Shown here piece after piece: positions 62 to 16,442 of a stretch of 64,000 bases of DNA. Under the pieces are notes generated by a model. It searched no databases. It was given only the letters and a program-made list of their open reading frames with translations, and was not told the DNA's origin. This stretch comes from Methylobacterium sp. FF17 (lineage in GTDB: Bacteria > Pseudomonadota > Alphaproteobacteria > Rhizobiales > Beijerinckiaceae), in contig NZ_CP107532.1 in NCBI RefSeq assembly GCF_025813715.1, positions 1,612,001 through 1,676,000 of the forward strand, in the 5' to 3' direction. The stretch's first letter is position 1; every line of letters starts with the position of its first letter. Made by a program: the position numbers and the translations under genes.

Positions 62-688
62 TCAGGAATGCGAAAAGATGTCGGTCTCGGGCCAGCCCGC
101 GAGGTCGAGGCGGGCCCGGGTCGGCAGGAAGTCGAAGCAGGCCTGCGCGATCTCGGTGCGGCCCTCCCGCGCCAGCATGGCGTCGAGGCGATCGCGCGCC
201 GCGTGCAGGTAGAGGACGTCGGAGGCCGCGTAATCGACCTGGGCCTGACTCAGGGAGGTGGCCCCCCAGTCGGAGGATTGCTGCTGCTTGGACAGGTCGA
301 CGCCCACGAGCTCGCGCACCACGTCCTTGAGGCCGTGGCGGTCGGTGTAGGTGCGGGCCAGCTTCGAGGCGACCTTGGTGCAGTAGACCGGCGCGGGCAT
401 GACCCCGAGGCCGTGGAACAGCACCGCGAGATCGAAGCGCGCGAAGTGGAAGATCTTCAGGGTGGCGGGATCGGCCAGCACCCGCATCAGCGTCTTGGGC
501 GCGGGCCCGCCGGGCACGATCTGCACCACGTCGGCGCTACCGTCGCCGCGCGAGATCTGCACCACGCAGAGCCGGTCCCGGTGCGGGTTCAGCCCCAGGG
601 TCTCGGTGTCGATGGCGAGGGCGGGGCCGGCGACGTAATCGGCCGGCAGGTCGCCGCGATGCAGGCGGATGGCGGGATGGGGTGGCAT
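62..688 (-). CDS. rnd: Short ribonuclease D-type 3'-5' exonuclease
   Basis: This 208-residue protein is a DEDDy-family 3'-5' exonuclease that probably trims structured RNA 3' ends. The three exonuclease motifs are visible: AIDTETLGL near residues 24-32, FHFARFDLAVL near 80-90, and VDYAASDVLYL near 150-160 with the Y..xD signature. It lacks the C-terminal HRDC domain of the E. coli enzyme, so it belongs to the short form common in alphaproteobacteria. The ATG at 688 was preferred over an upstream in-frame start because homology begins within ten residues of it. It is transcribed away from the repeat-bearing spacer and has no obvious operon partner here. Confidence 0.88.
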   Translation of the reverse strand: MPPHPAIRLHRGDLPADYVAGPALAIDTETLGLNPHRDRLCVVQISRGDGSADVVQIVPGGPAPKTLMRVLADPATLKIFHFARFDLAVLFHGLGVMPAPVYCTKVASKLARTYTDRHGLKDVVRELVGVDLSKQQQSSDWGATSLSQAQVDYAASDVLYLHAARDRLDAMLAREGRTEIAQACFDFLPTRARLDLAGWPETDIFSHS

Positions 689-724
689 GGACGGGGTTCT
701 GCGCTGTGGTCCCCGGCGCCTAGC

Positions 725-863
725 ACCCGTCCCGCGCCGCCACAAGAGAAGCGATGCCGCCCGCCGGCGCGCGGCATACGCTGCGACACGGGAGGCGCTG
801 CCGCGCGCCGGGGCGCGGCATACGTTGCGACAAGGGAAGCGCTGCCGCGCGCTGGGGCGCGGC
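725..863. repeat. 44-bp tandem repeat, two full units plus degenerate flanks
   Basis: Two nearly identical 44-bp units lie at 769-812 and 813-856. Each starts GCGCGGCATACG and ends near a GCCGCGCGC run. A third start is cut off after 857, and a weakly matching unit can be seen at about 725-768. The array fills the spacer between the RNase D start and the stop of the ComEA-like gene. It holds no spacers and shows no coding bias. Confidence 0.75.
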
Positions 864-872
864 AGCCGGGGG

Positions 873-1268
873 CTATTTCTGCTTGGCGATCACCTTGTCC
901 TTGATGCCGTCATAGGCATTCTGCGGGATGATCTTCTTCGCGATCAGCTCGTCCTTGCCCCGGTAGGGACGGCCCTTGATGATGGCGGCGGCCCGGGCCG
1001 CGCCGATGCCCGGCAGCGCGTCGAGTTCGGCGGCGGTGGCACTGTTGATGTCGATCAGGGCGCCCTTGTGCGCGGCGGGCGCTTCGACGGTGGGCGCCGT
1101 CACGGTGGGGGCCTTGGGCGGCGTCGGGCTGCTCGGGGCCGGCGTCGCGGGGGTGGGCGCGGGAACCGGCTTGGTGGTGGGCGTCGCGGGGCTCGGGGCC
1201 TGGGCCAGGGCGGGGACGGCCGCGAGGCAGGTCAGCACGGCCATCGTGCGCATCAGGGAAGACATCAT
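873..1268 (-). CDS. Secreted ComEA-like helix-hairpin-helix protein
   Basis: A protein of about 131 residues with an N-terminal signal peptide ([24 protein letters not shown], split here only by the cleavage region), a proline/threonine/alanine-rich linker, and a C-terminal helix-hairpin-helix module. The module includes [18 protein letters not shown] followed by an [10 protein letters not shown] stretch. This domain occurs in ComEA-family DNA-binding proteins and in many small periplasmic proteins of unknown role. No other competence gene is nearby, so DNA uptake is not inferred. The start at 1268 has a GGGAG ribosome-binding site seven bases upstream; a second ATG follows immediately. Confidence 0.82.
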
Positions 1269-1605
1269 GGGAAACTCCCGGGGTCGATGACAGGGCGGTG
1301 GCACCGCGCCAGCCGTCGAAACCTGGAGCACAACGCTTGAACCGCTGCTTAACATCGCGTTGTGCTGTCGATCATCCGGCCGAGGACCTCAGGGGCGGGC
1401 CGCAGCGCGGCGAATGCCCCGGCGACCCCGCCCCCCTTGGACCCCTCCGGGAAGCCGGCGGCATTTTTCGGCGGCCCCTAGCCAGGGCAGCGTCGCGGGG
1501 CTATAAGGCCGGCCTCGAATCTCCGTTTGAACACGGTGCCGAGGCGATCCCTCCGAGAGGGGGGAGCCGCCCAGGCGCCCTTTTTGCCATCGACAGGATC
1601 CTCCC
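1269..1605. other. Intergenic region upstream of rpmF
   Basis: This 337-base spacer separates the leftward ComEA-like gene from rightward rpmF and must hold both promoters. ORFs that cross it show no protein-like composition. The only clear structure is a terminator-like hairpin close to rpmF, annotated separately. Confidence 0.6.
1562..1585 (+). terminator. Terminator-like hairpin in the rpmF leader
   Basis: GGGAGCC (1562-1568), loop GCCCA, GGCGCCC (1574-1580), then TTTTT. Six of seven stem positions pair. It lies 20 bases before the rpmF start codon, so it could be an attenuator or could end a short upstream transcript. Confidence 0.5.
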
Positions 1606-1794
1606 ATGGCCGTTCCGAAGCGAAAGACCTCCCCCTCGCGTCGCGGCATGCGCCGCTCCGCCGACGCCCTCAAGGCCCCGACCTACGTCACCGACAAGGA
1701 TTCGGGCGAGCTCCGCCGTCCCCACCACATCGATCTGAAGACCGGCATGTACCGCGGTCGCCAGGTCCTGAAGGTGAAGTCGGCCGAGGCCTGA
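1606..1794 (+). CDS. rpmF: 50S ribosomal protein L32
   Basis: The 62-residue product begins [20 protein letters not shown], the hallmark start of bacterial L32, a small component of the large ribosomal subunit. It continues with the HHIDL and YRGRQVL segments seen in alphaproteobacterial L32. The zinc-binding cysteines of some L32 proteins are absent, as is usual in this group. Length is as expected. A hairpin with a T run sits just upstream. The gene stands alone, without plsX or fabH next to it. Confidence 0.96.
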
Positions 1795-1920
1795 GCCTCA
1801 CGGGGTGCGGCACGCCCGCCCCTGCGACGACCCGTCGATGCAATCGAGCCGAGGCCCGCACCCGCGAGCCCGGCTTTTTTCTTGCGCGGATGCCCTCGTG
1901 CCTCACCGAGGCCGGCCGAA

Positions 1921-2196
1921 TCAGGCGCGGCGGCCCGCTTCGGCGTAGCGTGCGGCGGCCGAGCGCGTGCGCTCGTGGCGCGACGGCCGGAGCGCCGGCT
2001 CGGCACTGACGATCAGCTGCGCGAGGAAGCCCGCCAGGGGACGCCGCGGCACGGCGCGCAGGCCGTCGGAGCGGGTCTCGGCGCCGCCGGCGATCACGAC
2101 GAGAGCCCGGGTAGGGTCCTGCCGCGCAGGACCCGCGAGATTCGCAGGATCCGTCTCATCCGTCCGGTCCGCCTCGGGGCGCCCCATCGCATCCAT
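1921..2196 (-). CDS. Small hypothetical protein (possible conserved alphaproteobacterial family)
   Basis: A 91-residue ORF between rpmF and phaR. Its C-terminal half carries the pattern ALVVIAGG, then FLAQLI, then an arginine-rich RHERTRSAAARYAEAG tail. From memory this resembles a family of short uncharacterised rhizobial proteins with a central FLAQLI-type motif and an RRxEP..A..Y ending. No signal peptide or membrane segment is seen. The N-terminal 30 residues are low in information and the true start may lie further in. Function is unknown. It is listed because the spacer is otherwise about 500 bases long. Confidence 0.5.
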   Translation of the reverse strand: MDAMGRPEADRTDETDPANLAGPARQDPTRALVVIAGGAETRSDGLRAVPRRPLAGFLAQLIVSAEPALRPSRHERTRSAAARYAEAGRRA

Positions 2197-2296
2197 CCCG
2201 GCGCCCGTGATGGCGCATGGGGACAGAATTGGCTCGCGTTAACGGAACGTCAACCTTTCGTCCGGAGTGCCCACCGGAGAGATCGCGGCGAGCGGC

Positions 2297-2923
2297 TTAT
2301 TTCTTCGCGAGATCTTCCAGCCGCGACTGCATCTCCGCCATCTGCCGCTTGAGGTCGTCGAGGTCGCTGCCGGCCTGCGGCGCCGGGGACGGGACCGGAA
2401 GGCCCGCGCCGGACTTTCCGGCGGAGGAGGGATGGGTTCCCATGGCGGAGAGCGGGCCGGTGCCGAAGGTGGTGAACATCTTCATGGCGTCGCCGAAGAA
2501 GCTCATGTTGGCGCGGACCTGCTCTTCCATCGCGCTCTGGAAGGCGGTGGGCGCGAAGCTCTGGGTCATCTTCTCGCGCAGGCCCTCCTGGTCGCGGGCG
2601 AAGTTCGCCATCGAGAATTCCAGGAAACTCGGGACCATGGTGCGCATGCTGTCGCCGTAGAAGCGAATCAACTGGCGCAGGAAGGCCACCGGGAGCAAGT
2701 TGTCGTCGCCGGCCTTGTTCTCCTGCTCGAAGATGATCTGCGTCAGCACCGAGCGGGTGATGTCGTCGCCCGAGCGTGCATCGTAGACGAGGAAATCCTC
2801 GCCGTTCTGCACCATCGTCGCCAAGTCCTCGAGGGTGACGTAGGTCGACGTCCCGGTGTGATAGAGGCGCCGGTTGGCGTATTTCTTGATGACGGTGTGA
2901 TTGGACTTACCGTTATCCGCCAT
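2297..2923 (-). CDS. phaR: Polyhydroxyalkanoate synthesis repressor PhaR
   Basis: A 208-residue PhaR/AniA-type regulator that couples polymer accumulation to transcription of granule genes by binding either DNA or the polymer. The N-terminal DNA-binding domain ([20 protein letters not shown], about residues 11-30) is diagnostic. It is followed by the accumulation-regulator region ([22 protein letters not shown]) and a C-terminal [22 protein letters not shown] segment likely to form a coiled coil. The start at 2923 places the conserved domain near the N-terminus; longer in-frame ORF sequence upstream has no homology. It is divergent from phaA, the usual arrangement. Confidence 0.95.
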
Positions 2924-3241
2924 CTCTGGAGGCCTCTCCCGACACGTTTCCACGCACGCGCAATCTCTTCCCAGACATCCGAGACCATTGCCCGATCTCG
3001 CGGCGCACAAGTTCATCTTAAGGCGTTCGCGTGCCGACGAAAACAGCAATTTATCGCCCATCCCGTAGAATACCACGCACGGACGTGGCCGCTGTCACGG
3101 GAGGAGCCTCGAACAACCGCAGGATGCCTTGACTTCGCAGGGGTGACGGCTTTCATCCGGAGGAACGGCACAAAGGCGCCCACGCTCGTCGATCCGATGA
3201 GCGTCAACGGAGCGCCATGCCGCCTTGAGGAGAACGTCACC
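2924..3241. promoter_or_regulatory. Divergent phaR/phaA control region
   Basis: This 318-base spacer between the leftward phaR and rightward phaA must carry both promoters and probably PhaR sites. It is more AT-rich than its surroundings around 3040-3075. No unambiguous PhaR palindrome was identified by eye. An AGGAG ribosome-binding site precedes phaA. Confidence 0.6.
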
Positions 3242-4423
3242 ATGGCAGCAGAAGACATCGTCATCGTTGGTGCGGCGCGCACCGCCGTGGGCTCGTTCGG
3301 CGGAGCGTTCAACACCGTCCCCGCGCACGAACTCGGTGCCGTGGCGATCAAGGCCGCCCTCGAGCGGGCCGGCGTGTCCGCCGACGACGTGGACGAGGTG
3401 ATCTTCGGCCAGGTGCTCACCGCCGGCGCCGGCCAGAACCCCGCCCGCCAGGCCGCGATCAAGGCCGGCATCCCGGAGAAGGCCACGGCCTGGGGCGTCA
3501 ACCAGGTCTGCGGCTCGGGCCTGCGCACGGTCGCCCTCGGCATGCAGCAGATCGCCAACGGCGACGCCACCGTCATCGTGGCCGGCGGCCAGGAATCCAT
3601 GTCGCTGAGCCCGCACGCGCAGTACCTGCGCGGCGGCCAGAAGATGGGCGACGTGCAGCTCGTCGACACCATGATCAAGGACGGCCTCTGGGACGCCTTC
3701 AACGGCTACCACATGGGCACCACCGCCGAGAACGTGGCCCAGGCCTTCCAGCTCACCCGCGAGGAGCAGGACGCGTTCGCCACGAAGTCCCAGAACAAGG
3801 CCGAGGCCGCCCGCAAGGAAGGCCGCTTCAAGGACGAGATCGTCCCCGTCACCGTGTCGAGCCGCAAGGGCGACACCATCGTCGACACCGACGAGTACAT
3901 CCGCGACGGCGCCACCGTGGAGGCGATGGCCAAGCTCAGGCCCGCCTTCTCGAAGGACGGCACCGTGACGGCCGCCAACGCCTCGGGCCTCAATGACGGC
4001 GCCGCCGCCCTCGTGCTGATGTCGGCCTCGGAAGCCGAGCGCCGGGGCATCAAGCCGCTCGCCCGGATCGTGTCCTGGGCCACCGCCGGCGTCGACCCGA
4101 AGGTGATGGGCACCGGCCCGATCCCGGCCTCGCGCAAGGCCCTCGACAAGGCCGGCTGGAAGCCCTCCGACCTCGACCTGATCGAGGCCAACGAGGCCTT
4201 CGCCGCCCAGGCGCTGGCGGTGAACAAGGACATGGGCTGGGACACCGATAAGGTGAACGTCAATGGCGGCGCCATCGCCATCGGCCACCCCATCGGGGCC
4301 TCCGGCGCCCGCGTCCTCGTCACCCTGCTGCACGAGCTGAAGCGCCGCGACGCCAAGAAGGGTCTGGCCACCCTCTGCATCGGCGGCGGCATGGGCGTCG
4401 CCCTCTGCGTCGAGCGCGTCTGA
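3242..4423 (+). CDS. phaA: Acetyl-CoA acetyltransferase (beta-ketothiolase)
   Basis: A 393-residue thiolase, exactly the usual length, condensing two acetyl-CoA to acetoacetyl-CoA as the first step of polyhydroxybutyrate synthesis. The acylated cysteine lies in [11 protein letters not shown] (about residue 89), the catalytic histidine in [15 protein letters not shown] (about 349), and the second active-site cysteine in CIGGGMGVA (about 379). The ATG at 3242 follows an AGGAG ribosome-binding site. It is 131 bases upstream of phaB and clearly forms an operon with it. In methylotrophs acetoacetyl-CoA also feeds the ethylmalonyl-CoA pathway. Confidence 0.97.
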
Positions 4424-4476
4424 GCCAGACTTGAGCGGCGCTCCATGAATTGTTGAGGGCGCCGCAAATTTAAATC

Positions 4477-4516
4477 GGTCGCGCGGAGGCGGGGACGCCC
4501 CTAAAGCCGCGCGACC
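4477..4516. repeat. Perfect 10-bp inverted repeat between phaA and phaB
   Basis: GGTCGCGCGG (4477-4486) and CCGCGCGACC (4507-4516) pair perfectly, and the 20-base loop contains a second GGGG/CCCC mini-stem. There is no T run, so it looks like an mRNA-stabilising or processing structure rather than a terminator. Confidence 0.7.
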
Positions 4517-4554
4517 CACAACAATCACAAGAAACCAGACTTTCGGAGGAAATC

Positions 4555-5283
4555 ATGGCTCAGGAACGCGTCGCACTCGTCACCGGCGGCACCCGCGGCA
4601 TCGGCGCCGCCATCTCGCAGGGCCTCAAGGCCAAGGGCTACAAGGTCGCGGCCAATTACGGCGGCAACGACGAGGCCGCCAGCGCCTTCAAGGCCGAGAC
4701 CGGCATCCCGGTCTTCAAGTTCGATGTGGGCGACTACGCCGCCTGCGAGGCCGGCATCAAGGCCGTGGAGGCCGAGGTCGGTCCCGTCGACGTGCTGGTC
4801 AACAACGCCGGCATCACCCGCGACGGCCTGTTCCACAAGATGAGCTTCGAGAAGTGGCAGGCGGTCATCAAGACCAACCTCGACTCGGCCTTCACGGTCA
4901 CGCGCCCCGTCATCGAGGGCATGCGCAACCGGGGCTTCGGCCGCATCATCCTGATCTCGTCGATCAACGGCCAGAAGGGCCAGATCGGCCAGACCAACTA
5001 CTCGGCCGCCAAGGCCGGCGTGATCGGCTTCGCCAAGGCGCTCGCCCAGGAGAGCGCCTCGAAGGGCATCACCGTCAACGTGATCGCGCCGGGCTACATC
5101 GCCACCGACATGGTCATGGCGGTGCCGGAGGACGTGCGCAACAAGATCATCTCCACGATCCCGGTCGGCCGCCTCGGCGAGGCCGAGGAGATCGCCCGCG
5201 CGGTGGAGTACCTCGCGGCCGAGGATTCGGGCTTCATCACCGGCTCGACCCTGACGATCAACGGCGCCCAGTACATCGCCTGA
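4555..5283 (+). CDS. phaB: Acetoacetyl-CoA reductase
   Basis: A 242-residue short-chain dehydrogenase that reduces acetoacetyl-CoA to (R)-3-hydroxybutyryl-CoA with NADPH, the second step of polyhydroxybutyrate synthesis. The Rossmann motif TGGTRGIG is at residues 11-18, NNAGITRD near 81-88, the catalytic serine in ISSINGQKGQ, and YSAAKAG supplies the Tyr-Lys pair. The PhaB-typical PGYIATDMV loop is present. A strong GGAGG ribosome-binding site precedes the start. No phaC synthase is encoded in the window. Confidence 0.97.
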   Translation: MAQERVALVTGGTRGIGAAISQGLKAKGYKVAANYGGNDEAASAFKAETGIPVFKFDVGDYAACEAGIKAVEAEVGPVDVLVNNAGITRDGLFHKMSFEKWQAVIKTNLDSAFTVTRPVIEGMRNRGFGRIILISSINGQKGQIGQTNYSAAKAGVIGFAKALAQESASKGITVNVIAPGYIATDMVMAVPEDVRNKIISTIPVGRLGEAEEIARAVEYLAAEDSGFITGSTLTINGAQYIA

Positions 5284-5362
5284 TCCGATGCCCGCGCGGC
5301 CCCGTCCGGGGGCCGCGCGGACCGATGCGCCGCTCTCCGGTCCGGTCGACCGGCGCCCGACC

Positions 5363-5412
5363 CAGTCGATCCCCGTCCGTCAGTCGATCCCCATCCGTCA
5401 TTCGATCGCCAT
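5363..5412. repeat. 18-bp tandem repeat over the 3' end of the GDPD gene
   Basis: Two 18-bp units, CAGTCGATCCCCRTCCGT, occupy 5363-5380 and 5381-5398, and a decayed third (CATTCGATCGCCAT) follows at 5399-5412. The stop codon of the leftward phosphodiesterase gene lies at the junction, so the last residues of that protein are encoded by the decayed unit. Confidence 0.7.
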
Positions 5413-6627
5413 GCAATTGGCGTAGAACGTCGTGGTCGCGGGCCAGTCCGAGAACACGCCCGCCACGCCGACATCCCGGTACAGCACGTCGAGGAGGGTG
5501 AGCACGTCGCCGTCCCGATCGATCAGCGGCCGGATCGACTTGTAGTAATATCCGCCCCCAGTCTTCAGCGGCCCCGAGCGCTCCAGCGACCAGGCCACGA
5601 GGTCGAGGCCGGCGGCCCGCGCCGCGCGCGCATAGGCCGAGGGCTCGATCGTCCCGTTCGCCCCGACCCGGACCAGCATCCAGAGTGGCGGCGCCAGGGT
5701 GCGCAGGCCGAGCGCCGACAACTCCGCCATGCCCGGCGTCCAGCTCCCGGGCTTCTCCGGGTCGAAGCCCGGGTCGGTCTCGTCGCGGTTGTCGAGCCAG
5801 AGCGCCTGCCGGCCGAACTCCGGCTCCGCCTTCAGCCAGTACAGGATGTCCCGGAGCTGGAAGCTCTGCGGCCGCACCTCGGAGGCCGGGATCCCCGCCT
5901 GCTTGTAGGCGTCGATCATCGCCTGGGCGTACTGGTCCTGGGTGTAGCCCGCGAAGGGCATGGCCACCTCGGGCGCCTTGAGTTCGGGCGTGAACCGGCG
6001 GCCCAGGGACTTCACCAGGGCGATATACGCGTCATGCGTCATCAGGGTGCCGGTGGTGGCGTAGAGGTCCGTGCGCCAGCGCGGCGTCGCGTTCATGTAG
6101 GCGGCCCGCGTGGTGGCGTCCGGGTCGCCGGCATCCATCTTGCCGTTCAGGGTCTCGAACTCGGCGCGCGTCAGGTCGCTGGTGCAGCAGCGCGCGCTGG
6201 CCTTGCGCCCCGTGGCGGGGTCGGCCGGCTGGAAATCCTGGGTGCATTTGGCCGCAAGGTCGGGCCGGGCCAGGATGTCGGTGGTGGTGTGGAGGTCGCA
6301 CTGGGCGTGCCGGCAGACGAGCTGCCGGTCCCGCGTGAAGGCGACGTCGCACTCGATCACCCCGGCCCCCATGCGGGCGGCTGCGAGCACGCCCTCCCGC
6401 GTGTGCTCGGGAAACTGCAGGGGCGCGCCCCGGTGCGCGATCGAGAACCGGCGCGCCGTGTAGGCCCGGTCGGTGCCGCAGGCCTGGAGCCGGTCCTTCA
6501 GGGGGCCGGGCTTCAGGCTGTCCACGAGGTAGAACGGGCGCGGCCCGATCTGCGCGGCCTCGCCGGCCCGAAGGGGCGCCGCGCACAGCCCGGTCAGGAG
6601 GGCGGCCGCCACGATGATCGCACGCAT
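5398..6627 (-). CDS. Secreted glycerophosphodiester phosphodiesterase
   Basis: A 409-residue exported enzyme predicted to hydrolyse glycerophosphodiesters to an alcohol and glycerol-3-phosphate. A signal peptide ([21 protein letters not shown]) precedes the GDPD barrel. The catalytic set is visible: [15 protein letters not shown] with the HR pair, [14 protein letters not shown] with the metal-binding E.D, and [16 protein letters not shown]. The long internal insert with [10 protein letters not shown] and the C-terminal GVFSDWP match the periplasmic GlpQ-like group. Start 6627 has GGGAGG upstream. The gene runs opposite to the neighbouring exporter. Confidence 0.9.
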
Positions 6628-6786
6628 GGGCCTGATCCTCCCGACCGTCTCGCATTCCCGGTCGAGGGTTAGCGCCGCCGCATGACCGGCCCGTGAAGGC
6701 CAAGGGCTCCGTTGCAACCGGAGGCCCGCGCATGGGACATAGGCGGGCCTTCCCCTCTCTCCCCCCTCCCCCCGCTCCGGTCCCCC

Positions 6787-7677
6787 ATGTCCCGCGCGAC
6801 CCTGCTCGGCTTCGGCGCGATCCTGCTGTGGTCGCTGCTGGCGCTGCTCACTGCCCTCTCCGGCGCGGTGCCGCCGTTCCAGCTCGCCGCGATGACCTTC
6901 GCCATCGGGGGGCTGGTCGGCTGCGCCAGCTGGATCGCGCGGCCGGCGGGATTGCGGGCCCTGCGCCAGCCCTGGCCGGTCTGGCTCCTCGGGGTCGGCG
7001 GCCTGTTCGGCTATCACGCCCTCTACTTCGCGGCGCTCCGCCTCGCACCGCCGGCCGAGGCCGGCCTCATCAACTATCTCTGGCCGCTGCTCATCGTGCT
7101 CCTGTCGGCGCAGCTTCCGGGGGCCGCCGGCCTGCGCGCCGGGCATCTCGGCGGCGCGGCCCTCGGCCTGGCGGGGGTGGCCGCCCTGTTTGCCGGGCGC
7201 AGCGGGCTCGACCTGCAGCCCGGGGCGCTGCCCGGCTACCTCGCGGCCCTGGCCGCCGCCTTCGTCTGGTCGGGCTATTCCGTCCTCTCGGCCCGGGTCG
7301 GCGCGGTGCCGACCGATGCGGTGGCGGGCTTCTGCCTCGTCACCGCCGCCCTGAGCCTCGCCTGCCACCGCGCCTTCGAGGCGACCCTGTGGCCGGAGGG
7401 CGCCGTGCAATGGGGCGCGATCCTCGCCCTCGGCCTCGGCCCGGTGGGCGCCGCCTTCTACCTCTGGGACATCGGCGTGAAGCGGGGCGACCTGCGGCTC
7501 CTCGGGGTCGCCGCCTATGCCGCCCCCGTCCTCTCGACCCTGACCCTGGTGGCGACGGGCCATGCCCGCCCCAGCCCGGCCCTCGGCCTCGCCTGCGTGC
7601 TCATCGTCCTCGGCGCCGGAGTGGCGGTCCGCGCCTCGCGCGCCGGGACGCCCTCGCGGCCGAAACCCGGGGCTTGA
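6787..7677 (+). CDS. EamA/DMT-family inner-membrane exporter
   Basis: A 296-residue protein with about ten hydrophobic segments in two repeats, typical of the drug/metabolite transporter superfamily, whose members export amino acids or metabolites. Recognisable features are [19 protein letters not shown] at the N-terminus, the [20 protein letters not shown] segment common to EamA proteins (split over helices 3-4), and [19 protein letters not shown] in the second repeat. The ATG at 6787 matches the family start, although its Shine-Dalgarno is weak; an in-frame TTG at 6712 is possible. Substrate cannot be predicted. Confidence 0.87.
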
Positions 7678-11217: not shown

Positions 11218-14139
11218 ATGCGCCTGCATGACCTCACGCCAGCCGATGCCTCTTCGGATGCGGATCGCCGGCCCGGCGGGGCGGCGGGGCTGGAACAGGA
11301 CCTCCTGCGCCTCATCGAGGAATCCCGCGAGCAGGCGGCGGAGGACCCGTTCCGCAACCCCGTCCTCGCGGTGACGCTGGCGATCACCCGGCGCTTCGAC
11401 CGGGGGGAGATCGGCGAGGACGACCTCGATGCCCTGTTCCCCCGCCTGCGCGCGCAGTCCCTGGCCACCCGCGCCGAGCGCCTGCGCGCCTATGTGGGGC
11501 TCGACCGGGACGCGAAGGCGGCGCCCGACACCCGGATGGCGGCCCGCCTCGTCGCCGCGGTTCCGGAGCGCCAGGGCGATTTCGAGACGTTTCGCGATCT
11601 CGTGGGCCGCACGGGCTTCGCGGTGGTGTTCACGGCGCATCCGACCTTCGGCATGCCGCGCGCCGTCGCCGCCCTGATCGCCGAGGCCGCGAGCACGGCG
11701 GAGGGCGCCGCCCGCGAGCCGCTGATCGCGCGGGCCGCCGGCCTCTCCACCCGGCCCGACCCGAAGATCAGCCTCGACGACGAGTTCGACCAGGCCTGCG
11801 TCGCAGCCAATCACGGCCGCACGGCGCTCGATGCCTTCAATGCCGCCCTGCTCGATGCCGCCCGCGCGCGCTGGCCCGACCGCTGGACCGAACTGGTGCC
11901 CAAGCCCTTCGCCATCGCGAGCTGGGTCGGCTGCGACACCGACGGGCGCACCGATATCGGCTGGTGGGACACCCTGCGCTACCGCCTCGAATCGAAGCGG
12001 ATGCAGCTCGACCGGGTGATGCGCGAGTTGCCCCAGGTGCCCGCCACGCAGGTGGTGCGCGACCTGACGGGCAACGCGCTCGCCGCGGTGAACCGCCAGC
12101 TCGCGGTGGCGCCCCGCCTCGGCACCAAGCCGTCCCTGGAGGCGGTGCACCGCTTCGCCCTGGCCCTCATCATCGAGCGCGAGCGCGCGCAGACCGATTC
12201 CAGCGCGATCCTGGCCGGGCTCGCCGGCGCCCTCGGGGGGCTCGAGACGGACGCGGACCGGCGCGGGGTGGCGCTGCTGCGCTCGGGCATCGCCACCCAC
12301 GGCCTCTCGAACGCCCTGCCGCATTTCCGGCTCAACGCCAGCCAGATCCACAACGCGGTGCGCCGCGTGACCGACCTCGAGGGGGAGCCCACCGACGCCG
12401 CGCAGCGCCGCTCGCACCTCGCCACCATCCACGCCCTCCTCAACGACGTGCAGGCGGTGGACGTGGATTTCGGAGCGCTCGCCGCCGAGCGCGCCTCGGC
12501 CGCCCGGCTGATGATGACGATCACCCAGATCCTCAAGCACGTGGACGGCACGCATCCCGTGCGCTTTCTCATCGCCGAGACCGAGACCGGCTACACCCTG
12601 CTCGCCGCCCTCTGGCTGGCGCGGCATTACGGGATCAGCGACAAGGTCGAGATCACGCCCCTGTTCGAGACCGCGAGCGCCCTCGAACAGGGCGTACGCG
12701 TCCTCGACGATGCCCTGCGCAACCCGCACTGGCGCGCCTACCTCAAGCGCATCGGCCGCCTGACGGTGCAGTTCGGCTACTCGGATTCCGGGCGCTATGT
12801 CGGCCAGCTCGCCGCGAGCTTCTGGATCGAGCGCCTGCGCCTGCGCATCACCGAACTCATGGTGCAGAACGACCTGACCGGGGTCGAACTCGCGATCTTC
12901 GACACCCACGGCGAATCCATCGGCCGGGGCGCGCACCCGACCTCCCTGCGCGACCGCCTCGCCTACCTCGCTCCCGAGGATGCACGCCGCCGCAACCGGG
13001 CGGCGGGCCTTCGGGTCCGGCTCGAATCGAGCTTCCAGGGCTCGGACGGCTACCTGATGTTCGGCACCCTGCCGCTGGCGCAGGCGACGGTGGAGCGCAT
13101 CGCCGAGCACGTCTTCGCCCTCGACGTCGCCGACGACGATTCATTTGCCGACTACGTCCTGTCCGATCCGGCGAGCGGGGCCGACGAGGCCGACGACCCG
13201 ATCTACGCCGAGCCCGATTTCGCCGCCGAGTTCTTCACGGTGGTGCGCCAGGACATGGAATCCCTGGTGGACGACCCGGGCTACGCCGCCCTGCTCGGCA
13301 CCTTCGGCCCGAGCCTCCTCGACCGCACCGGCTCGCGCCCCGTGGCCCGCCAGACCGATGGCGGCGGCCCCAGCATGATCACCCATCCGCGCCAGATGCG
13401 GGCGATCCCCAACAACGCGATCCTGCAGCAGCTCGGCTTCCTCGCGAACTCGCTGCACGGCGTGGGCCGCGCCGCCGGGCGGGCGCCGGACCTGTTCCGG
13501 GACATGCGCCGGGATTCCGTGCGCTTCTCCCGCTCCTTCCGCCTCGCCCAGCACGCCGCCGCCGTCAGCGACCTCGACGTGCTGCGGGCCTATATCGACA
13601 CCCTCGACCCGGCGGTGTGGCTGGAGCGGGCCCGGCGCACGCAGCGCGACGGCCGGCGCGACGAACTCGTGGTCATCGCCAACGCCCTCGACCGCCTGCG
13701 GCTCGCACCCGATCTCCGCCACCTGTTCGGCCGCCTCACCTGCGACTGGCTGAGCCTGCAGGCGGCCGCCCCAGACCTCGGGCGGATGTCGGTGCGCCTG
13801 ACCCTGCTGCACGCGATCCGCCTCGCCCTGATCCACCGGATCTGGTTCCTGGCCGTGCACATCCCGGGCTTCCGCCCGCAATCGGGGGTGAGCCGCGAGG
13901 CCCTGATCGAGCGCTTCCTGCGCCTCGACATCGACGGCTGCCTCACGCTGCTGGAGGACATCTTCCCCATCACGCCGGACCCGACGCTCGGCCTGAACTT
14001 CGGCGAGCCCGCAGGCCCGCGCGACGTCGGCACCTACGAGGCCGAGCACCGGACGCTGTTCGAGCCGATCCGGCGCAGCTTCCAGCGCGTGCGCGAGATC
14101 TCGGGCATGATCCAGCACGAGGTCGGGGCGTTCGGGTAG
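11218..14139 (+). CDS. Phosphoenolpyruvate carboxylase-like protein with altered active site
   Basis: A 973-residue protein with full-length homology to PEP carboxylase, which forms oxaloacetate from PEP and bicarbonate. Recognisable blocks are FTAHPTFGMPRA (catalytic His retained; the usual Glu after TAHPT is Phe), TPLFETASAL, QFGYSDSGRYVG (metal Asp retained, catalytic Lys replaced by Arg), IFDTHGESIGRGAHP (canonical FHGRGGxIGRGG; His and first Arg lost, last Arg kept), and TGSRPVARQ...RAIPNN. The C-terminal QNTG allosteric tail is absent. It may be a divergent enzyme clade or a non-catalytic homologue. No other serine-cycle gene adjoins it. The start at 11218 has a modest AAGG site. Confidence 0.88.
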   Translation: MRLHDLTPADASSDADRRPGGAAGLEQDLLRLIEESREQAAEDPFRNPVLAVTLAITRRFDRGEIGEDDLDALFPRLRAQSLATRAERLRAYVGLDRDAKAAPDTRMAARLVAAVPERQGDFETFRDLVGRTGFAVVFTAHPTFGMPRAVAALIAEAASTAEGAAREPLIARAAGLSTRPDPKISLDDEFDQACVAANHGRTALDAFNAALLDAARARWPDRWTELVPKPFAIASWVGCDTDGRTDIGWWDTLRYRLESKRMQLDRVMRELPQVPATQVVRDLTGNALAAVNRQLAVAPRLGTKPSLEAVHRFALALIIERERAQTDSSAILAGLAGALGGLETDADRRGVALLRSGIATHGLSNALPHFRLNASQIHNAVRRVTDLEGEPTDAAQRRSHLATIHALLNDVQAVDVDFGALAAERASAARLMMTITQILKHVDGTHPVRFLIAETETGYTLLAALWLARHYGISDKVEITPLFETASALEQGVRVLDDALRNPHWRAYLKRIGRLTVQFGYSDSGRYVGQLAASFWIERLRLRITELMVQNDLTGVELAIFDTHGESIGRGAHPTSLRDRLAYLAPEDARRRNRAAGLRVRLESSFQGSDGYLMFGTLPLAQATVERIAEHVFALDVADDDSFADYVLSDPASGADEADDPIYAEPDFAAEFFTVVRQDMESLVDDPGYAALLGTFGPSLLDRTGSRPVARQTDGGGPSMITHPRQMRAIPNNAILQQLGFLANSLHGVGRAAGRAPDLFRDMRRDSVRFSRSFRLAQHAAAVSDLDVLRAYIDTLDPAVWLERARRTQRDGRRDELVVIANALDRLRLAPDLRHLFGRLTCDWLSLQAAAPDLGRMSVRLTLLHAIRLALIHRIWFLAVHIPGFRPQSGVSREALIERFLRLDIDGCLTLLEDIFPITPDPTLGLNFGEPAGPRDVGTYEAEHRTLFEPIRRSFQRVREISGMIQHEVGAFG

Positions 14140-14146
14140 GGCTCGG

Positions 14147-14220
14147 GGCTTCGCGGCACGGTTTTCAGGGCTCGCGGCGCGGTTTTAAGGCTCGCGGCGC
14201 GGTTTCAGGGCTCGCGGCGC
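14147..14220. repeat. 20-22-bp tandem repeat, four units
   Basis: Units begin at 14147, 14169, 14189 and 14209, with consensus GGCTCGCGGCGCGGTTTTCA. The array starts eight bases after the PEPC-like stop and runs over the stop codon of the converging leftward gene, so the last residues of that protein come from the repeat. Confidence 0.75.
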
Positions 14221-14744
14221 GTGACCGCCGCCTCGGGCCGCGCGGCCAGTTCGGCGAACAGGGCCGCGAGCAGCGCGAGTGGGATGGACCGGACGGTGTG
14301 GCTCCGCCCCGTCACGTCGTTCCACATGAGCCAAGCGCTGGGAGGGGCGCCCAACTGGGCGGTGATGCGATATCCGGCCGCCGGCAGCACGCTCCCGATG
14401 AGCCGCACGGCGTCATCGATCGATTCGGTGTAGCGCCGGCAATGGATGAAGCTCGTCGACACGTAGAACCGCTTCGGTCCGACCGGGCGGTGCGCCCGGT
14501 CATAATCCTGGACGTCGTCCCAGCAGGGCACGCCGATCGTGCGGTCCTTGATCCGGGCGCAGAACAGGGCGCGCAAGATCGCCAGGTCAGCGCCTTCCCC
14601 GGACCAGCCGCTCTGCCCGAACAGGTCGCGCAGCTGGGCCGCCTTGACGGGATCGATCACGCGCGGGTCGGGCGGCGGCTCCGCATGGTGCGGCCCGGCC
14701 CGCCCGGTCGACGGCCACCACGTCTCGTGTGCATCGACGGCCAA
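14205..14744 (-). CDS. Hypothetical protein downstream of nfeD
   Basis: A 179-residue soluble protein I do not recognise. It contains QLRDLFGQSGWSGEGADL, CARIKDRTIGVPCWDDVQDY, KRFYVSTSFIHCRRYTESI and a short hydrophobic ALLAALFAELAARPE near the C-terminus. No signal peptide is seen. The start is TTG at 14744, supported by an excellent GAGGAGG ribosome-binding site eight bases upstream; no ATG fits as well. It lies 58 bases beyond nfeD in the same direction and is probably the last gene of the SPFH-NfeD transcript. Its stop codon lies inside a tandem repeat. Confidence 0.72.
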   Translation of the reverse strand: MAVDAHETWWPSTGRAGPHHAEPPPDPRVIDPVKAAQLRDLFGQSGWSGEGADLAILRALFCARIKDRTIGVPCWDDVQDYDRAHRPVGPKRFYVSTSFIHCRRYTESIDDAVRLIGSVLPAAGYRITAQLGAPPSAWLMWNDVTGRSHTVRSIPLALLAALFAELAARPEAAVTRREP

Positions 14745-16283: not shown

Positions 16284-16413
16284 AGTCCTGTCGGTGCAAG
16301 TCCTGTCGACGCGAGTCCTGTCGACGCGAGTCCTGTCGACGCGAGTCCTGTCGACGCGAGTCCTGTCGACGCGAGTCCTGTCGACGCGAGTCCTGTCGAC
16401 GCGAGTCCTGTCG
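16284..16413. repeat. 15-bp minisatellite, nine copies
   Basis: AGTCCTGTCGACGCG repeats with exact 15-base periodicity, with copies starting at 16284, 16299, 16314, 16329, 16344, 16359, 16374, 16389 and 16404. The first junction reads GGTGCA instead of GACGCG; the rest are near-identical. Each unit contains the palindrome GTCGAC. The array lies between the stop of the nuclease-like gene and the start of the SPFH gene, within the leader of the SPFH-NfeD transcript. Confidence 0.93.
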
Positions 16414-16442
16414 AGGAATTTCGTCCGAGCGGTCCTTCGACC

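Follow-up and report, generated by a model that had tools for sequence, protein, structure and literature searches.

The window analyzed here is a stretch of 64,000 nucleotides from Methylobacterium sp. FF17 (contig NZ_CP107532.1, positions 1,612,001 to 1,676,000 of the forward strand), and it contains a gene at 11218..14139 encoding a divergent member of the phosphoenolpyruvate (PEP) carboxylase (PEPC) family. Our analyses place this gene in a deeply separated, widespread subfamily within the PEPC family. The same rebuilding of the active site recurs in dozens of other bacteria, so its product is probably functional as an enzyme and not a decayed copy. The gene and the sites on which the argument depends are as follows, with residues in E. 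coli PEPC numbering unless assigned to the window protein.

11218..14139, + strand: divergent PEPC-family gene, 973 amino acids; nonsynonymous substitution rate (dN) below synonymous rate (dS) in eight comparisons
11632..11649, + strand: TAHPTF; H138 retained (H141 in the window protein), E141 replaced by F; 62/62 genes
11923..11949, + strand: WVGCDTDGR; W248 retained, R253 gone, N256 replaced by R (R244 in the window protein) in 62/62 genes
12667..12669, + strand: presumed metal ligand Glu, E506 of E. coli (E484 in the window protein); 62/62 genes
12778..12795, + strand: YSDSGR; D543 retained (D523 in the window protein), K546 replaced by R (R526); 62/62 genes
12898..12933, + strand: FDTHGESIGRGA; H579 replaced by D, G580 by T, R581 by H and G583 by E, with R587 retained
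13330..13341, + strand: GSRP; R699 retained, as is R703 at 13348-13350; 62/62 genes
13399..13410, + strand: RAIP; R713 retained; 62/62 genes
13744..13746, + strand: site of E. coli R832 (presumed aspartate-inhibitor site); Asp in the window protein

The reading frame upstream of 11218 stays open to 10756, and close relatives start near 11218. The window protein belongs to PF00311 by score (65.7 bits against a gathering cut-off of 22.4, with a match that covers residues 359-575 only), and a predicted model together with profile comparison extended the likeness to a whole-length PEPC fold, in agreement with the end-to-end homology of the original prediction. The protein scored 72.8 bits against the NCBIfam equivalog for PEP carboxylase, NF000584, for which the curated cut-off is 815.

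To define the active site, we aligned 63 divergent rows with 33 canonical PEPCs; one gene was duplicated (L148 = L189) and was taken out of the residue counts, leaving 62 distinct genes with the window gene included. All 62 keep H138, W248, R396, E506, D543, R587, R699, R703, and R713, including E506 and D543, which we take to be the metal ligands. E141F, N256R, A/N545G, K546R, G580T, and R581H are likewise found in all 62, so that the Lys of GYSDSxK expected in a canonical PEPC is always Arg. Position 583 is E in 60 genes and D in two, position 401 is Q in 61 of the 62, and H579 is replaced by D in 43 and N in 17 (D/N in 60/62), with one H and one S. The canonical FHGRGGxxxRG with H579 and R581 is thus absent, and, as read from this alignment, the subfamily signature is F[DN]THGESxGRG plus SD[SA]GR. 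Among alignment columns with at least 95% fixation in each group, 33 carry the same residue in both and 13 are switched; one of the 13, K620E, appears with MAFFT and is alignment dependent, as hhalign shifts that stretch, and it is used nowhere else. Median identity is 37% within the divergent group (lowest, 20%) and 17% between this group and canonical PEPCs, with the duplicate row included in both values.

The substitutions listed in the original prediction are therefore real and recur across 62 genes, including loss of the catalytic His and first Arg with the last Arg kept, the Lys-to-Arg and TAHPTE-to-TAHPTF changes, and persistence of the metal ligands, the first catalytic His, and the GSRP and RAIP arginines. 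A search of the alignment for catalytic residues intact at other positions found none, but an Arg does stand at 256 where R253 and R581 are gone. The claim that the C-terminal allosteric tail is missing did not hold. The terminal Gly is conserved in 60/62 genes (gaps in the other two), the window protein ends with Gly, and its structural alignment extends to residue 971. What has been lost are the side chains of K773, R832, and N881, which we take to form the aspartate-inhibitor site: K773 is variable, R832 is D in 57 genes and E in four (61/62), N881 is A in 43/62, and the window protein has V, D, and A. Freedom from allostery, as had been suggested, is thus supported only for the aspartate site, as the tail is present.

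A quick, unrooted LG+G4 tree of 62 rows (33 divergent and 29 canonical) put the divergent and canonical groups on opposite sides of one branch with 100% support in the Shimodaira-Hasegawa-like approximate likelihood ratio test (SH-aLRT), although one remote row (L195) sits on a long branch with uncertain placement and unusual composition was flagged in 20 rows. Together with the fixed signature, this branch bears out the earlier suggestion of a separate enzyme clade. The subfamily shares with bacterial and plant PEPC (PF00311, EC 4.1.1.31; E. coli Ppc, PDB 1FIY/1JQN) the whole-length predicted fold, the metal ligands, H138, R396, R587, R699, R703, R713, and the terminal Gly, but differs in its low identity, its separate grouping, and replacement of K546, H579, R581, E141, and the aspartate site. 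Archaeal-type PEPC (PDB 3ODM; PF14010) is another of the nearest known systems.

PF00311 matched two places in the whole genome, the window gene (59.3 bits) and a canonical PEPC at C1:520218-522851 (788.9 bits) that carries FHGRGGSVSRGG and GYSDSNKD. This second gene adjoins frames that we read from their N termini as mclA, mtkB, mtkA, fch, mtdA, and hprA, of which mtkA and mtkB are similar by BLAST to succinyl-coenzyme A (CoA) ligase subunits. Its product groups with PEPCs of Paraburkholderia phymatum, Aminobacter, and Paracoccus aminovorans (99% SH-aLRT), and the P. aminovorans gene lies in a row with genes for malate-CoA ligase and D-glycerate dehydrogenase and with glyA. We take the canonical PEPC at this locus to be the serine-cycle PpcA. 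Since it occupies the serine-cycle cluster, the window gene lies outside that cluster, as had been noted, and its product is not PpcA. The two belong to one superfamily and are encoded in the same genome, but PpcA, like that of Aminobacter and P. aminovorans, retains FHGRGGSVSRG and GYSDSNK and falls among canonical PEPCs, whereas the window protein does not.

Still more remote PEPC-like frames were seen in passing. L236 (genome G579) has adjacent frames at 586-3912 and 4014-7487 (1109 and 1158 amino acids) with weak PF00311 matches, in which a search for TAHPT, YSD, GRG, and GSR found no such motif; L239 has a further motif-less frame of 824 amino acids, and L242 has a 1101-amino-acid frame with only a GRG.

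The divergent gene is under purifying selection, as eight comparisons at 87-95% identity gave dN of 0.026-0.083 and dS of 0.28-0.52. At least 79 loci encode the divergent protein, nearly all in Methylobacterium or Methylorubrum; among the matches listed, 10 genomes of the window's genus carry the gene, one with the gene split over two contigs, and the 132 genomes without a match lie outside those listed. Across the class, the gene was found in 57 of 385 Alphaproteobacteria genomes and 42 of 276 genera. A phylum sample of 299 genomes yielded 17 carriers, all of the same class, with the matches shown being mostly near relatives, and members also exist in Burkholderia and Paraburkholderia.

We then compared carriage of the gene with that of other carboxylases in the 385 genomes. 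Canonical PEPC was counted above 400 bits (38 genomes), with G499, G360, and the remote PEPC-like G208, G244, G307, G341, G368, G503, and G579 counted as neither type. Pyruvate carboxylase was counted above 180 bits, which retained 60 of 81 matching genomes and left out 21, including carriers G440 and G520. With kinship ignored in the P values, canonical PEPC occurred in two of the 57 carriers, which belong to the window's genus (5.6 expected; P = 0.06), pyruvate carboxylase in one (8.9 expected; P = 4e-4), and either carboxylase in three (14.1 expected; P = 4e-5). More telling than these overall counts is the split within families: f14, f17, f53, f96, f103, and f108 have sampled members with one PEPC type or the other and none with both, with few genomes per family.

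Alternatives were examined in 54 of the 57 carriers (G243, G472, and G521 left out), 52 of which lack canonical PEPC. ATP-dependent PEP carboxykinase (ATP-PEPCK) was found in 22/54, crotonyl-CoA carboxylase/reductase was over the cut-off in 19/54, and a malic enzyme match was present in 48/54. Isocitrate lyase was over the cut-off in 37/54, with strong or profile-spanning matches in 26; short matches were taken as other members of that superfamily. In G275, G428 (90% complete), and G560, we found no ATP-PEPCK, isocitrate lyase, crotonyl-CoA carboxylase/reductase, malic enzyme, canonical PEPC, or pyruvate carboxylase, in a search that did not include GTP-PEPCK.

Gene neighborhoods were compared by all-against-all BLAST of open frames at 46 loci (39 from the G-numbered genomes, three plasmid loci, the window, and three from Methylobacterium or Methylorubrum). 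The divergent PEPC gene itself was present in 46/46; for the next families, in 37 and 20 loci, the representatives, which alone were looked at, overlap the PEPC gene in other frames. On a Sphingobium plasmid (L163, 7400-14775), a row consists of genes for a 2-hydroxyacid dehydrogenase, an APH-like kinase, an enolase (annotated eno_2), a fumarylacetoacetate (FAA)-hydrolase-like protein, and divergent PEPC. This row looks like a catabolic pathway feeding a PEP-like intermediate, and the adjacent enolase fits a PEP-like substrate. On a Burkholderia plasmid, divergent PEPC is flanked by an RraA-like aldolase and a 2-hydroxyacid dehydrogenase. A Phyllobacterium plasmid (L164, 2146-14826) encodes formyl-CoA transferase, an oxalate/formate antiporter, CoA ligases, and divergent PEPC, the last directly behind a sucC-sucD pair and near the oxalate genes. 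We make no claim that this pair is MtkAB, as BLAST was undecided for SucC and put SucD nearer to E. coli SucD. In the window itself, a 20-bp repeat of 3.7 copies (14146-14221) lies immediately 3' of the stop codon of the PEPC-like gene, and a 15-bp repeat of 8.7 copies with 97% matches (16284-16414) lies near minus-strand frames named stomatin/NfeD-like from their translations.

The E. coli enzyme binds the phosphate of PEP through R396, R581, and R713 and the metal through E506 and D543; H138 and R587 are required for carboxylation and not for PEP cleavage, and R699 takes part in the carboxylation half-reaction. K546 and R581 lie near bicarbonate, and an H579 mutant retains part of its activity. 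From the homology, predicted fold, separate grouping, fixed substitutions, purifying selection, and distribution described above, we infer a substrate, product, metal, mode of regulation, and role for the subfamily. PEP and a divalent metal would bind at the usual site in the triose-phosphate isomerase barrel through the retained E506, D543, R396, and R713. Because H138, R587, and R699 are retained, the enzyme probably still joins CO2 through a C-C bond, with oxaloacetate as the likely product. Loss of K546, H579, and R581 and gain of R546, T580, H581, E583, and R256 suggest that bicarbonate and the transferred phosphoryl group are held differently, and aspartate feedback is probably absent. 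The usual role would be anaplerotic supply of oxaloacetate where ordinary PEPC and pyruvate carboxylase are lacking, and in Methylobacterium the protein may provide a second route alongside serine-cycle PpcA. We favor an oxaloacetate-forming enzyme because the residues for metal binding, the pair needed for carboxylation, and two phosphate arginines out of three are retained while the part that receives the phosphoryl group and bicarbonate is rebuilt. As judged from sequence, we put at about an even chance that this is a distinct functional PEPC subfamily whose members form oxaloacetate from PEP with altered acceptor handling.

Several observations weigh against this assignment. Mutagenesis of E. 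coli or plant enzymes shows that R581, K546, and H579 matter for PEPC activity. Lacking both other carboxylases is common, since 236 of 328 noncarriers lack both too; related genomes are not independent; the deficit against canonical PEPC alone is weak; G440 and G520 have low-scoring PYC/OADA matches that went uncounted; and replacement does not explain the window's genus, where both carriers examined (2/2) also have canonical PEPC. The neighborhoods revealed no widely conserved neighbor, with the largest nonoverlapping family in 11/46 loci (representative of 611 amino acids, no annotation) and the others in nine or fewer. Constraint also appears weaker than on PpcA, with dN/dS between G000 and G008 of approximately 0.19 for the divergent gene and 0.07 for PpcA. 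Finally, one study of M. extorquens AM1 extracts gives a PEPC activity of 63 nmol/min/mg for growth on methanol, against 4 with acetate and 6 with succinate (PMC2948502). An ordinary active PEPC from the divergent gene is therefore not obvious in these values, assuming that AM1 carries the gene, and any contribution from it under such conditions would be small or invisible to the assay.

A possible though less probable explanation, which takes in the other acceptor raised in the original prediction, is an enzyme that shares the fold and the dependence on PEP but uses a different cosubstrate, for example, phosphate as the acceptor (CO2 + PEP + Pi yielding oxaloacetate + pyrophosphate [PPi]) or an enol phosphate other than PEP. 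The switching and subsequent fixation of K546R, R581H, H579D/N, G583E, and N256R, at positions we take to lie near bicarbonate or phosphate, would suit such chemistry, as would the dehydrogenase, kinase, enolase, FAA-hydrolase-like, and aldolase neighbors on the Sphingobium and Burkholderia plasmids. However, H138 and R587, which we associate with carboxylation, do not vary, the gene is distributed much as if it replaced enzymes that form oxaloacetate, and the plasmid contexts are not conserved. The reaction considered is that of the PPi-type PEP carboxykinase or carboxytransphosphorylase (EC 4.1.1.38), to which we claim no relationship; the accessible part of a review describes PPi-PEPCK as unrelated to ATP/GTP-PEPCK (PMC8100219). 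A bolder and rather unlikely proposal is a new enzyme class in the PEPC fold that would join PEP to CO2, or process a PEP-like enol phosphate, with a phosphoryl acceptor other than bicarbonate and with H581, E583, R546, and R256 as the new catalytic set; in some Alphaproteobacteria it would take the place of both PEPC and pyruvate carboxylase.

The regulatory pseudoenzyme raised in the original prediction, which would bind and sense PEP as a regulator or scaffold, could account for the loss of H579, R581, and K546, the low PEPC activity of M. extorquens grown on acetate or succinate, and the weaker constraint. We consider it doubtful because all 62 genes keep the metal ligands, H138, R587, R396, and R713, because the new residues, several of them polar, are equally fixed, and because in nearly all carriers examined there is no canonical PEPC on which a regulator could act. 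That the window protein is the organism's serine-cycle PpcA or a recent duplicate of it would gain from the position of the Phyllobacterium member behind sucC-sucD near oxalate genes, but MtkAB is not a nearer match to that pair than E. coli SucCD is. We regard this explanation as highly improbable and reject PpcA identity, given that the genome's own serine-cycle cluster holds a canonical PEPC and the window protein lies across the deepest branch of the tree.

Our literature searches, which covered few subscription journals, showed, among the papers listed, no study, biochemical or otherwise, of the divergent subfamily. The accessible part of a review of the PEP-pyruvate-oxaloacetate node describes four main PEPC types, none of them like this one (PMC8100219), and those of PMC3227643, PMC3486813, PMC4949768, and PMC11665112 speak of a single PEPC reaction. 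The source annotation names the divergent proteins "phosphoenolpyruvate carboxylase" despite replacement of residues regarded as essential in every aligned gene. The chemistry that we propose is easy to test. If the divergent proteins carboxylate PEP, the accepted roles of the replaced residues need revision, and if they do not, a step of central metabolism is misassigned in many Alphaproteobacteria. For Methylobacterium, a platform for methanol-based production, our proposal would give the PEP-oxaloacetate branch a second enzyme.
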